Below, one piece after another: positions 2,450 to 59,150 of a stretch of DNA of 64,000 nucleotides (its first letter is position 1; every line of letters begins with the position of its first letter). The notes under the pieces are model-generated. The model had not been told where the DNA came from, searched no databases, and was given only the letters and a program-made list of their open reading frames with translations. The stretch spans positions 119,479,121 through 119,543,120 of the forward strand of contig NC_091125.1 of NCBI RefSeq assembly GCF_040183065.1, given 5' to 3'. Origin of the DNA: Periplaneta americana. Its lineage: Eukaryota > Arthropoda > Insecta > Blattodea > Blattidae. Both the position numbers and the translations under genes were made by a program.

Positions 2450-2592
2450 GTGAAAGTGTTTGTGACATGATCCTTTACCGGTATGCGGAGGCTTGGATTC
2501 TTGTCACAACAACAGATCAATTTATAGGCCTACTGTCTTTTAGCTTTCTTTAGACTCAAACGCATTCTACTAACTAGGCGGAGCAGTGTATA
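2450..2592 (+). repeat. Dispersed repeat, copy 1
   Basis: The same sequence recurs in the same orientation at 49111-49246, sharing AGTGTTTGTGACATGAT, then GTCACAACAACAGAT, then GCGGAGCAGTGTA, with substitutions. Copy 1 carries an extra GGCCTA relative to copy 2. The class is unknown; it has no TIR or coding capacity. Confidence 0.75.
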
Positions 2593-2599
2593 TTGTCCT

Positions 2600-3360
2600 G
2601 ATTCGTCAATGCCTCTGATTGGCCTTTCATTGTATAGTACAACCAAGCTTGAATTATATACGGTTTTAGTTTTAATTTTTGTTTCTTTCAGTAAAGTAGT
2701 TATGTATGTAACTGATGAAAATTTGTTTTAAATTCAGTATATTATATTCAGTGGCTTACGCAGAATTTTGTCAAGAGGGTTTATTATTAAATTGTTTACA
2801 CTTTATTTTCTAATATTTATTTATATTATACTATGTTATAATAGAACATGTTCATGATTATCCTTATAAAATCTTTGAAATGTATTTTTTTTTTCACAGC
2901 CTTCCAATTTTTTTTTTTTAATTTTAACTTCTGTTTAATTTTGTGTAGTAAAAAATGCTTTTGTCATTATTACACTTACACAATAATCATACACATATTT
3001 TTAGTCAACAGTTATTTGTATATGATAGGTAAAACACTTTACATAACAGGAAAAAATCAAGGAAATAATCAAATATCTTGAAATATATGTAATTAAACAC
3101 AATAATGGAACGTGGAACTCACCAAGAATGAAGAATGGAACTGGCATGATGACTATATTGAAGGAGGGGTAGGAGGACTATGCCTTATATCGATGTAGAT
3201 TTTGTTACTCTTACAGTGAAAACAAATAGAGATGGGAAAACGATAATGGATTAAAAAATACTCAAATCTAAATGTCTTTTCTTTTTAGTTCAAGGGGGGG
3301 GGGTCGAACTCGGTAACCCCAATCCAATTGCTGCATTAATTATAGGCTATAAGTCACAGT
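2600..3360. other. No recognisable feature
   Basis: AT-rich DNA with T runs around 2886-2930 and a G run at 3295-3303. No supportable gene. Confidence 0.4.
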
Positions 3361-3372
3361 ATTCAAATAAAT

Positions 3373-3735
3373 TTAATATTTTTATTAATCCTTGGCGCTA
3401 CAACCCGTGAAGGGCCTAGACCGACCAGCCGGCTGATGGCCTCACGCCCACATGCCGAAGCAGAGGTGGACGATCATCCAACCAGAATGGAGGTATCGTG
3501 TGGTTAGCACGATGATCCTCCCAGCCGTTATAGCTGGTATTCGCAACCGGATTTCGCTTCCTATCGTAGCTCTCCAAGTGCATCACGATGCTGGGTGGGC
3601 ACCGGTCACATATACTGACCGAACTTTCATGAGAAAATTTCTTCTCCCACGACCCACGAGGACTCGAACCAGCGCGCACTCCGTAACGCGAGTCCTAGGC
3701 AGGATGCCTTAGACCGCGACGCCACGGCGCGGGAC
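3373..3735 (-). mobile_element. tRNA-derived SINE (family C), full length
   Basis: Reading the minus strand, the element starts GTCCCGCGCCGTGGCG, has a D-arm-like GGTCTAAGGC, a long variable-arm-like region and a B box GGTTCGAGTCC. This resembles a class II (Leu/Ser-like) tRNA head. About 270 bp of unrelated body follows, ending near GTAGCGCCAAGG. It is bracketed by a perfect 12-bp target duplication, ATTCAAATAAAT, at 3361-3372 and 3736-3747, so the boundaries are exact. A 5'-truncated relative lies at 62297-62452 on the plus strand. Reading frames across it are spurious. Confidence 0.85.
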
Positions 3736-3747
3736 ATTCAAATAAAT

Positions 3748-4780
3748 AACTAGTTATTATTGTTATTATCTTTCTTATAATGCATTATTACCACATAGCC
3801 TAACTCTTTAATATTATAACTTCTTTCATGTAAGTTATACTATTTTCTACGTGTAAGTAGGGAAACAATATTCTACTTGTAATGACCCAACCCTGTCTGT
3901 TATAATCTTATTTCATTGATGCTGTCAAAATCTCTGCATCGCTGAAGCTATTAAACTCCGCAGAGGTCACGTCTTCTCCAGAGTCTTGCTTCGCTGTTGC
4001 ACTGCCTCTGCAACCAGTCCGATAGGATTTACAAACACGTGGTTTTTAAACGCTGCTGGTAAGATAGATACTCATTGGCCTGAATTAGGATTGATTCGGC
4101 TGTTGATCTGCTTTTTAATTCCCGATAAGTAGTGCTGTGCAGATAGGTATCTGTCTGCGGGGAACTGGTACTGTGCTAATAGATCGGGGGCCGAGGGTAT
4201 TGAACTGTTCCGGCGGCGGCGACCCACGCCTGTGAATTACGAGGGGATGCTGGGCTGCTCAGGGGTGTTTCCTCGTGTAGGCTCGCTCGAGGATAACTTA
4301 TTATCGCGCCTTCTTTAGCCCAGGTGGTACAAAAGGCAGAGTCTTGCGGACATTGTGTTGGAATAATTGCACGGACTCCGAGATGCCAAGCACACCTCTG
4401 GATGACACCTACACGGCATTCAGACTCTTATTTAAGACGTGTTGCTGCTGATCGAACCGATAAATAAAGATAAATACCGACTTTACAGGATTAAATTATA
4501 TTAGGAAAGAACCATTTAATCTATGTTTCCCTTAGTTCAGTACTGGCGACCAAAAAGCGACTGAGGAGAGGAAACTAACTAGCCGTTCTGAATTTTTTTT
4601 CCAAAAATTAAGCTCTGATAACTTCATAATAAAAAACGTTACATATAGGTCTGTACATGAGCAAATGCTCGATACTGCTTGTGGTATTTGTACTGAAGGA
4701 AATGGGTGTAGTGTAGGTTTCCTATAAGGCCTATATAAGTTAATAACTCTACCCATGCTTAGATTTTTTTCTGTTGTCTT
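3748..4780. other. Repeat-poor unique sequence
   Basis: About 1 kb with little simple repeat and, at about 3920-4420, a more even base composition than the surrounding DNA. No coding frame, tRNA box or TIR was seen. It may include conserved non-coding sequence, but nothing here proves it. Confidence 0.35.
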
Positions 4781-4867
4781 ATTTTGCTATAGTTACATTT
4801 ATTCAAGTAGGTACGGTAAATTCATTGGTTCTCAAAGCTTTATACATGTTCCGAAAACAGGTCTTCA

Positions 4868-5720
4868 CCCTAGATCATACCTGCACAAACAGCGCTCAAC
4901 GAGCGCGCGCTCTCTTTCGGAGCGGGAGAGCCATGTTTACCGCTCGCCGAAACGGAGAGGAAGATACGTCAGAATGACATAGACTTGCTATAGGTAGAAG
5001 AGAGGGAAACGACCACTCAGTTATCTAGTGGAGTGCAGTGTGTAGGCCTATTCTCAGTAACTGTTTCACGTTGCTTACCTACTGCTACAGTACAGTATGG
5101 AGGAATCTAAAAGACGGAACGTAACATTTAACATTTAACGATTTACAGCTGGAACATATTGATCATCAATGTGACCTAAGGGCTAAAGATCGTTTGAATA
5201 ATACTACTAGCCTGGTTGAGTTTTACAAGACTAAACATTAGTAATAATATCCACGACTACACAGGCTGGCTGTGAAAATGATTGCTATGTTTGGCTCAAT
5301 ATTTATATTTGTGAGCAACTGTTTTCTATAATCAACTTTAATAAAGGTAGACATCGAACATCTGTAACTGATGTTTCAATACGATCAGTAGGCTACTATT
5401 CCTTTCAGCGTACTGATAAATAAAAATATAACAAAATGATGTTGTACATTTAAGTAGCTATATAATTTCTATTATTTCTGTAAAATAAATATTTCTTTAT
5501 TAATTTATAATAGTCCAAGATAGTTTTGTAAAGACTGAACGAGAATTCACTTCATAAACACTCGTAATAGTACTTCCTTTTGTATATATTTTGTACGAGA
5601 TCGCCCCTTCTTCTAGTCCACGCTTATACAGAGCGCAGCTAATATCTGCATTCCGCTCATGAGCTGTGAGCCGGCTCGGAGAGCGCAAACCTTGTGCAGG
5701 CCTGCCCTAGATCATACGGG
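4868..5720. other. Unassigned segment with repeated CCTAGATCATAC motif
   Basis: The motif CCTAGATCATAC occurs at about 4869 and again at about 5707, each preceded by a CAGG(T/C)CT-type sequence and near GCGCTC/GAGCGC-rich stretches. This suggests ends of one or two old DNA elements. Orientation and boundaries are unresolved and there is no coding capacity. Confidence 0.25.
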
Positions 5721-57116: not shown

Positions 57117-57287
57117 TATCAAACATTATTTTATGTATCCGGTGTCTTTACTCCATACTAAATGCGTGTTTCACTGCAGATGGAATGATGGATTGAATTT
57201 TGAATGGAATAGATAATTCATTCCTCGATTGTATTCATAATAAAAATAATCGAATCAAATAGGTTGCTTTACTGTTGAAACAATTCC

Positions 57288-57338
57288 ATTATTATTATTA
57301 TTATTATTATTATTATTATTATTATTATTATTATTATT
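57288..57338. repeat. (ATT)n microsatellite
   Basis: About 17 units. Confidence 0.95.
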
Positions 57339-57339
57339 C

Positions 57340-57785
57340 AGTTGTTCAGCTATTTATAAAACTTCTCTATAATTAATACAGTCATGTTCGAGCGCGTGTC
57401 TCCGAACTCGTGCTGGCCATACATCCTATTGAAGTTCCAGGAAAATGCAAATGAACGTTCAGAAAAGTGTTTTTTTCTTTTGTGCAAAACTCACATTGTC
57501 AGTTTTATGCTGTGTTTGTTTTCTGTTTGCTTAAAGCGATAGGATGAAAGATTTTTTTTTTCATATTTTTGAACATCCTTTGTAACTTGTAACGTAATGG
57601 CAATCAGTACTGATTACAGAAACTACAGTCGATCACAATATGAAAAACTTTTTTCAGCACTGTACATTATGATGTAGGCTATGGCGAATGCTGGGTTAAT
57701 ACAGTACCAATAACAAGCGTCAAGAGGCCCACTCTACTGAGAGAAAAAGCATTAGGGGCAACTGCTGAAGAACAGAAACGTCTAA
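57340..57785. other. No recognisable gene
   Basis: AT-rich with a T run near 57552. Confidence 0.4.
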
Positions 57786-57787
57786 TA

Positions 57788-58012
57788 TAAATAAATAAAT
57801 AAATAAATAAATAAATAAATAAATAAATAAATAAATAAATAAATAAATAAATAAATAAATAAATAAATAAATAAATAAATAAATAAATAAATAAGTAAGT
57901 ACGTAAGTAAATAAATAAATAAATAAATAAATAAATAAATAAATAAATAAATAAATAAATAAATAAATAAGTAAGTAAGTACGTAAGTAAGAAAATAAAT
58001 AAATAAATAAAT
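57788..58012. repeat. (AAAT)n array with AAGT/ACGT variants
   Basis: About 55 units. A block AAGTAAGTACGTAAGT occurs twice (about 57893 and 57969), about 77 bp apart, showing a higher-order duplication. Confidence 0.95.
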
Positions 58013-58014
58013 AA

Positions 58015-59150
58015 CCTATTAGTAATAGATATTCGATAGAATAGATGTTAATCTTCTTTCTTGTGTAAATGTGTCGTATGAAGAGAGAATATAGAAATTA
58101 CTTGCTAAAATCTAAGAAACAACATTCTATTTCACAAACAAAATAATTTTATACCAGACGTTAAAATTCTGGATCCAGTACGCATGGTTCGCAAGAACAG
58201 GATACGCTATGTTATGTGGAATTTCTGGTATATTTTTTCGTATCTTCGAGGGGAGGGGTAGACTTGCGACCCCTGAGCTCAATCAATGGTTGTTTTACGA
58301 CGTAGTGTATACAACAACATTAGAAGCTGTCTCGGCCCACAAGCAACACGCTTGCCCCGTGTTATATATCACCATCTACAATCACGCAATAATGGCGTGG
58401 CGATAAACTTGCTCAGATCCATCGACTCTGCGAATTTATGTGAATAAAATTACGTCCAACAGTACTTCTTCTTTCTTTTTAATATTTACACGGATAAAAT
58501 TATTAGTCTACCGAGTGAGTATAACGATTTGTAAGTGTGGTACAAACTCGGTAAGGGCACGAGCGGGAGAGAAAGAGTATGCGAGATATTAGGTACTTGA
58601 TTAGATGACGCTGTTATCAACAGAGTCAGCATCCATAAACAAGTAACTAGAAAAACAATTTTTATGTGGCCGTCATGAACTAGGCCTATACAGTAATTTT
58701 CTCAGTTTATGGTTTCCAACGGTTCATTGCACTTTAGTATGGTTTGTAGTCATCATTTGAAATAAGAAGAGTTATTAATTCCTGGTATACTTAGGCTTCT
58801 TTAATTGTAACAATTTTATGAATTATTGTTTACAGAGTACTAAGACGGTGTTGGTTCAGACACAGTTACAAATTTGGGGCGCAATTTTTCATTCTCCAGT
58901 ATACATTACATAGTATTAAAGAATTTGAATTTATTACTAACAAAAATTACATATATTTTAAAAGATTTTACAATTTTATTATACTACTTTAATACATAAA
59001 GAATAGTCCTAAGCGTATAAAGAATAATTTTAAAATACTAATAAAATAATTACAAAAGGAAAAGAAAAATCAAAATCGAAATAAGAAAGGAAAGCAGACT
59101 TATAGCCTATACTAGCGCCACCCGATTGAGTGGAATTCGTGCCCGACGGC
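58015..59150. other. No recognisable gene
   Basis: AT-rich, short frames only. Confidence 0.4.

Follow-up and report, generated by a model that had tools for sequence, protein, structure and literature searches.

Why should a single palindromic octamer, TAGGCCTA, stand out in the genome of Periplaneta americana? We addressed this question in a 64,000-nt stretch of contig NC_091125.1 (positions 119,479,121 to 119,543,120; hereafter the window, to which all coordinates without a region label refer). A preliminary description of this DNA had counted 13 copies against about 0.7 expected by chance, an excess of roughly 18-fold, and had read the word as the footprint that a transposable element inserting at TA dinucleotides leaves upon excision. 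Here, it is well supported that the octamer arose where GGCC and a further TA were inserted at a TA already present. The best explanation, with a probability of about two in three, is that the inserts are excision footprints of a TA-targeting (Tc1/mariner-type) element, left by a conservatively moving, low-copy donor with GGC overhangs. The observation is real and genome-wide, while the donor and the three-base overhang are unproven.

All 13 sites were recovered exactly where they had been placed, and the size of the excess was confirmed. The expectation for the window is 0.69 from base composition, 0.55 and 0.72 from Markov models of order 2 and 3, 0.54 from 100 dinucleotide shuffles (largest 4), and 0.46 at order 2 with simple repeats masked, i.e. 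an enrichment of roughly 18- to 28-fold. Chance was therefore rejected as the source (13 found versus 0.5-0.8 expected up to Markov order 3); models of order 4, 5, and 6 predict 2.4, 5.0, and 12.1 copies, and these orders already hold most of the octamer itself. The comparison with other GC-palindromes and the genome-wide count that the preliminary description had proposed both bear out the excess. Each of the other 15 NNGGCCNN palindromes occurs once or not at all in the window, and after masking of simple repeats the octamer has the top z-score among all 8-mers, both in the window and in 200 kb elsewhere. Twenty other regions of 10 kb at fixed coordinates (20 and 60 Mb on contigs C1-C10) hold 37 copies versus 1.43 expected, 13 of them in region L127 alone, so that 24 remain without it. 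These regions and the window together form the 264-kb set used below, from whose counts region L141, picked for its density, was left out. Across the genome containing the window (3,231,669,367 bases, 91 contigs) there are 457,526 copies, one per 7 kb, versus 16,914 of the reversed word, a lenient control as it holds a CpG. About 430,000 copies lie above chance or, by arithmetic, roughly 1.6 per thousand TAs (about 21,900 TAs per 264 kb). Word counts exceed event counts because some scars ride in tandem duplicates; an array at C1:1034003-1034514 of the assembly (G000), for example, repeats the octamer every 84 bases, and satellites of this kind supply some of the genome-wide copies.

A head-to-head fusion of the insect telomere repeat TTAGG/CCTAA was considered as a source and rejected, only the site at 29520 reading TTAGGCCTAA among the 13. 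Literature searches on the word, on over-represented palindromes, and on scars returned no paper on this motif among the matches listed; in the matched passages, PMC7650587 has the octamer once, within a cockroach primer, and PMC522874 has it within a sequencing primer. In viral_contigs, double octamers led to local clusters in unrelated contigs; L089 and L024 carry tight clusters within stretches rich in CCTATAGG, in contrast to the scattered sites of this genome.

The octamer does not stand alone. In a panel of 15 words of the form TA-G(n)C(m)-TA (n up to 4, m up to n), two are strongly raised in the 264 kb, namely TAGGCCTA itself (50 versus 1.9 expected) and TAGGCTA (52 versus 17.4; 14 versus 4.1 in the window and 38 versus 13.3 in the 20 regions, where L127 supplies 10 and 28 remain without it). 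TAGGTA (101 versus 100), TAGCTA (38 versus 40), and TAGGGTA (16 versus 18.9) are not raised, TAGGGCTA is at or below expectation, TAGTA is slightly up (674 versus 584), and the rare words TAGGGCCTA and TAGGGCCCTA reach 2 versus 0.7 and 1 versus 0.07. All substitution neighbours of the octamer together amount to 66 versus 53.6. This excess of 12.4, mainly transitions, is decay as expected of neutral scars and, set against the intact excess of 48, would fit accumulation over about 0.07 substitutions per site. TAGGCTA is not simply a decayed octamer because its own excess of about 35 compares with only 12.4 for all these neighbours.

Both words also favour the same surroundings, with a purine before the left TA and a pyrimidine after the right TA (R-TA-Y). 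Such flanks occur at 9 of the 13 window sites versus 26.5% of TAs there and, in the 264 kb, at 29/50 octamers and 31/52 TAGGCTA versus 25.6% of all TAs; for TAGGCTA in the 20 regions the figure is 23/38, and without L127 the two words still give 14/24 and 17/28. Symmetrised, position -1 of the octamer is G in 42% versus 19% and C in 6% versus 15% in the 264 kb. A preference for AG-TA in the window (8/26 half-sites versus 5.4%) was not replicated at position -2 in the 264 kb (A 33% versus 34%). An element that inserts at TA and favours certain targets would be expected to give such R-TA-Y flanks. Where the preliminary description had seen no common flanks beyond TA and ruled out that the sites derive from one repeat, the conclusion stands (pairwise flank identity among the 13 sites is at most 30/80, and random TA sets have a mean maximum of 40), while a flank preference does exist.

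Two further words were followed. TACAGTA, the canonical Sleeping Beauty-type scar, is raised about twofold in the window (30 versus 14.4) and more mildly in the 20 regions (63 versus 44.6); we do not claim it as a scar word, given that it has no clear R-TA-Y flank (11/30 and 20/63, respectively). It lies within 10 bases of 2 of the 13 octamers in the window (P about 0.02). TAACCTA is raised in the 20 regions (46 versus 21), probably due to a short interspersed nuclear element (SINE) containing that word.

Inserts at TA in repeat copies

Dispersed repeats allow a filled site to be compared with its empty counterpart. The paralogues at 2454-2590 and 49119-49247 are 82% alike, and the first reads TAGGCCTA where the second reads TA, with a 2-base difference close to the insert. 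An unselected survey of repeat pairs gave 24 rows with a TA-x-TA insert, in which x was GGC in four, GGCC in two, and GGGCC and GGGCCC in one each; several of the remaining rows go back to a single deletion in a reference copy. Within 880 bases of one copy of a long interspersed nuclear element (LINE) in L127 there are three inserts, one GGCCTA and two of the GGC type with 5 bases each. The preliminary description had placed several window sites in repeats whose family sequence has only TA. This holds cleanly for the site at 2525, is suggestive at 7398, and ambiguous at 28604, where the paralogue has extra letters. At 7398, a weak match to RVT_1 (E 0.027, below the cut-off) stops at the residue before the site.

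Two fixed TAs (TA 1 and TA 2) of a tRNA-derived SINE family gave the most extensive test. A two-sided search at TA 1 with both flanks exact found nine places, with inserts of AT, 13 other bases, CGACTA, GG, G, GGC, GACC, none, and CAG (the last in copy L146), and five of the nine that were fetched are full SINEs, 92-95% like the consensus. The left flank of TA 1 followed by TAGGC occurs at 13 places in the genome, 12 of them SINEs, with GGCC in four and GGC in seven, the SINE resuming after either insert, and another change in one (L153). At TA 2, the corresponding pattern has 24 places (the reversed control pattern has 8), which are SINEs in 15 cases and not in nine; the 15 comprise 12 with GGCC, one with GGC, and two with a non-SINE right side (L181, L182). 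L154, the one TA 1 place outside the SINEs, carries the octamer next to a left flank that is not SINE and was left out of the SINE tallies. Altogether, 24 of the 27 SINE copies with TAGGC have SINE sequence on either side of a duplicated TA that encloses GGCC (16) or GGC (8).

The filled copies form no subfamily at either TA. Mean distances at TA 1 are 0.079 among GGC copies, 0.103 among GGCC copies, and 0.085 among empty ones, and at TA 2 they are 0.102 for filled versus 0.091 for empty copies. Identical inserts have therefore arisen on many occasions at a given TA, although L151 and L156, mutually nearest filled SINEs, may share one event. As a separate observation, five of the 13 filled TA 2 copies (L159, L167, L170, L174, L175) have a T after the right TA, a position that in 21 empty copies is A (13) or C (8) and never T.

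Origin of the inserts

Several features of a TA-transposon scar are present: in SINE and LINE alignments the inserts occupy what used to be a single TA and are bounded by TA left and right, the bases between the TAs (GGC, GGCC) vary in length within the published range of 2-4, and the target preference is symmetric about the TA. In passages of PMC8151067, Tc1/mariner transposases are described as cutting a few bases inside the element and leaving 3' overhangs, with end joining producing a scar such as the CAG of Sleeping Beauty. Scars of 2-4 bp are given for Tc1/mariner in a passage of PMC7913693, and a 3-base overhang for the Mos1 cut in one of PMC4505599. On the best explanation, nearly every octamer and about two thirds of TAGGCTA would be scars of a DNA element that inserted at TA, duplicated it, and later left. 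The cut would expose GGC as a three-base 3' overhang on either flank, as happens with other sequences in Tc1/mariner excision. Pairing of GC with GC followed by fill-in would then yield TA-GGCC-TA, and pairing along the full overhang, at the cost of a single G.G mismatch, TA-GGC-TA. Two products are expected because these two annealing registers of a single overhang predict both. The donor would move conservatively, i.e. with one scar per jump and no copy made, and would be or have been present in few copies, so that scars could far outnumber donors.

Known systems resemble this in part. As in the Sleeping Beauty/Tc1 footprint TA-CAG-TA, the TA is duplicated and a few terminal bases are kept between; here, however, these are GGCC or GGC, there are two products rather than one, and no donor with such ends was found in the sequence examined. 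Mariners of the Mos1 type share the TA target and the three-base overhang, and a mariner remnant with TA-GGG ends does occur in region L135, but its ends are GGG instead of GGC and TAGGGTA is not raised. HIP1, an over-represented octamer of cyanobacteria, is likewise a single palindromic 8-mer hugely over-represented genome-wide; it is not known to be an insertion scar, whereas in the present case repeat copies show the insertion directly.

Several points weigh against an excision origin from a GGC-ended donor. We found no convincing TA-GGC...GCC-TA element in the 264 kb, and none of the 27 SINE copies that read TAGGC at TA 1 or TA 2 holds an element, which by the rule of three puts the share of intact elements below about 11%; even L181 and L182, whose right side is not SINE, read TAGGCTA and TAGGCCTA. 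Pairs of TAGG...CCTA with 13/18 matching ends number 12 of 6,075 in the 264 kb, where chance (0.15%) gives about nine. Pairs with GGC ends rest on octamer scars or decay quickly, the best outside simple repeats (L121 2441-4354) matching at 24/60 bases, and the convincing pairs have GGG ends. Outside a tandem array, no TAGGC 11-mer reaches three copies in 276 kb. In a passage of PMC4423477, mariner insertions in rice outnumber excisions by 2.6-2.8 to 1, and scars without donors are therefore unusual. The sites also cluster along C1 over about 0.65 Mb (variance/mean 2.2, from the first 100 listed places minus six tandem copies, 94 in all), with a dense stretch at 742-820 kb, and this can be accommodated only by invoking local hopping. 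Across the 20 regions, variance/mean is 4.6, or 1.3 without L127, which has 13 octamers and 10 TAGGCTA in its 10 kb (L141, selected as dense, has 10 and 8). The octamer count per region is not significantly correlated with that of TAGGCTA (Spearman 0.37, P 0.11) and is correlated with that of the control word TAGGTA (0.47, P 0.04); regional co-variation therefore lends no support. SINE TA 1 has 11 filled versus 51,670 empty exact sites, which by arithmetic is about 15-fold below the genome-wide average of GGC and GGCC scars, a shortfall that may partly come from exact flanks favouring young copies. Finally, some TAGGCTA were inherited within another repeat, as in the similar non-SINE stretches L164, L166, and L168, which have GATAGGCTAAAG or GATAGGCTAAAA-like sequence. 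The missing donor is most likely explained by conservative movement of a few copies, in which each jump would leave a scar and the copy number would not rise.

Alternative sources account for parts of the evidence. The preliminary description had proposed a miniature inverted-repeat transposable element (MITE) with TA-GGG...CCC-TA ends, of which two bases would be kept per end to give GGCC; further trimming could be invoked for GGC. Such a MITE is indeed present in the window (Table 1), and the 264 kb hold five elements of this kind with 14-18/18 matching ends, plus a weaker sixth (40429-41464, 13/18). One of them, L135 2456-3770, is a decayed mariner with a TA duplication and perfect 20-base terminal inverted repeats GGGTAAACACTGGTAATTTC (20/20); it encodes an 85-residue piece of Transposase_1 (DDE; PF01359, E 1e-11) with structure matches to SETMAR and Mos1, in a broken frame whose longest open stretch has 89 residues. 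The rare inserts GGGCC and GGGCCC in LINEs and GG and G in SINEs, one each, could come from GGG ends. As a general source, however, this type is not supported and we regard it as unlikely: TAGGGTA, its expected 3-base scar, is not raised, nor are TAGGTA and TAGCTA, while TAGGCTA is, and GGG overhangs cannot pair with each other, leaving a uniform product of two plus two bases unexplained. Two annealing registers of GGC fit better. An insertion without any donor, in which an enzyme breaks TA dinucleotides and end joining adds or copies GC letters, would accommodate the missing element in the 264 kb and the 27 SINE copies, the invariably short insert, and the dense stretch on C1. It is nevertheless a distinctly improbable account, as random addition would spread lengths and letters where two words dominate, and a TA duplication around a fixed insert is the usual sign of a TA-transposon's exit.

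A protein-binding or chromatin motif, made or kept by substitution under selection, would be palindromic with preferred flanks and could be spread unevenly along a chromosome, as the octamer is. Yet SINE and LINE copies show that the word came in by insertion, with the TA duplicated, and not by substitution, about 430,000 sites lie above chance, TAGGCTA shows the same enrichment and flanks without being a palindrome, and the substitution neighbours show decay, all of which makes selection a very improbable cause. Hardly any likelihood is left for a fixed part of a SINE subfamily or of one repeat family, the latter being one outcome by which the preliminary description would have judged itself wrong. 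Some copies do lie in tandem duplicates (L122, L127, L130, and the 84-base array), but the 13 window sites share no flanks and the filled SINEs are not a subfamily, the pair L151/L156 notwithstanding; for the sites examined, a repeat consensus does not account for the word. Of the excision reading in the preliminary description, the insertion with TA duplication was upheld by SINE and LINE copies, and the GGG-ended source was not supported.

Sites and other elements of the window

The coordinates of the 13 sites and of the elements used as references are collected in Table 1.

Table 1. Octamer sites and reference features of the window
Feature	Position	Strand	Remark
TAGGCCTA site	2525..2532		GGCCTA absent from paralogue 49119-49247
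TAGGCCTA site	5043..5050		exact match
TAGGCCTA site	7398..7405		in apparent LINE reverse-transcriptase remnant (minus strand)
TAGGCCTA site	16826..16833		shares one TA with a TACTGTA
TAGGCCTA site	20157..20164		exact match
TAGGCCTA site	28604..28611		in repeat; paralogue 62613-62777 reads TATAGGCTAATTA there (ambiguous)
TAGGCCTA site	29520..29527		about 15 bases past TTAA-flanked MITE
TAGGCCTA site	36238..36245		exact match
TAGGCCTA site	37207..37214		centre of longer imperfect palindrome 37191-37230
TAGGCCTA site	49943..49950		adjoins stretch that looks mariner-like by eye; in Pfam only weak HTH_29, E 0.082
TAGGCCTA site	52308..52315		3 bases from end of LINE homology (51534-52304)
TAGGCCTA site	52771..52778		exact match
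TAGGCCTA site	58681..58688		TACAGTA directly after
Paralogue without insert	49119..49247	+	empty site for 2525
MITE TA-GGGTAAAGG...CTTAACCC-TA	32158..32403		source type put forward by the preliminary description
LINE copy	26700..27567	+	reference for insertions in other copies
tRNA-derived SINE	12075..12349	+	one of 4 good copies; for reading filled and empty TAs
Other good SINE copies	21898-22174, 30656-30916, 38475-38705	minus	

Ten long open reading frames of the window gave nothing above the cut-off in Pfam, and a PDB search with the LINE piece at 7398 gave no match. Searches for the LINE and the SINE in viral_contigs and genome_contigs found no relative, and the part of PMC9191728 that was retrieved has nothing on this SINE.

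Besides these features, the window holds MITEs with GGGG...CCCC-type ends and TTAA on both sides (28771-29504, 35087-35983, and 60239-61123), two of which, 35087-35983 and 60238-61124, are 90% alike; such an arrangement would suit piggyBac- or Kolobok-type elements. A TA-flanked inverted-repeat element at 17298-17698 has GAGGAGAAAAATTCGCTCCG ends matching at 20/20 and tRNA-like sequence inside (17315-17387). Simple and tandem repeats comprise an ATAG microsatellite of 800 bases with 98% matches (9480-10278) and a degenerate tandem region (32683-34119) whose unit measures about 30 bases and whose higher-order units measure about 350.

What the proposed scars would record

As a rule, studies of excision scars rely on reporter assays and deal with a few scars at once. 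If the octamer is such a scar, it would allow cut-and-paste exits to be counted and dated across a whole genome by text search, and the choice between repair registers (GGCC versus GGC) would become measurable in nature. Scars in coding or regulatory sequence would represent insertions of 5 or 6 bases. We tentatively consider it possible that, for much of its recent history, this genome has been home to one TA-transposon of low copy number, or to a domesticated transposase with very few ends to act on, whose non-replicative movement left more than 400,000 near-identical scars, outnumbering its own copies by orders of magnitude. If this is true, the scars are a dated and mappable record of conservative transposition, in which dense stretches would stem from local hopping, and should the donor indeed be absent or very rare, a DNA transposon would be shown to leave its mark on a genome on a huge scale while not increasing in number.

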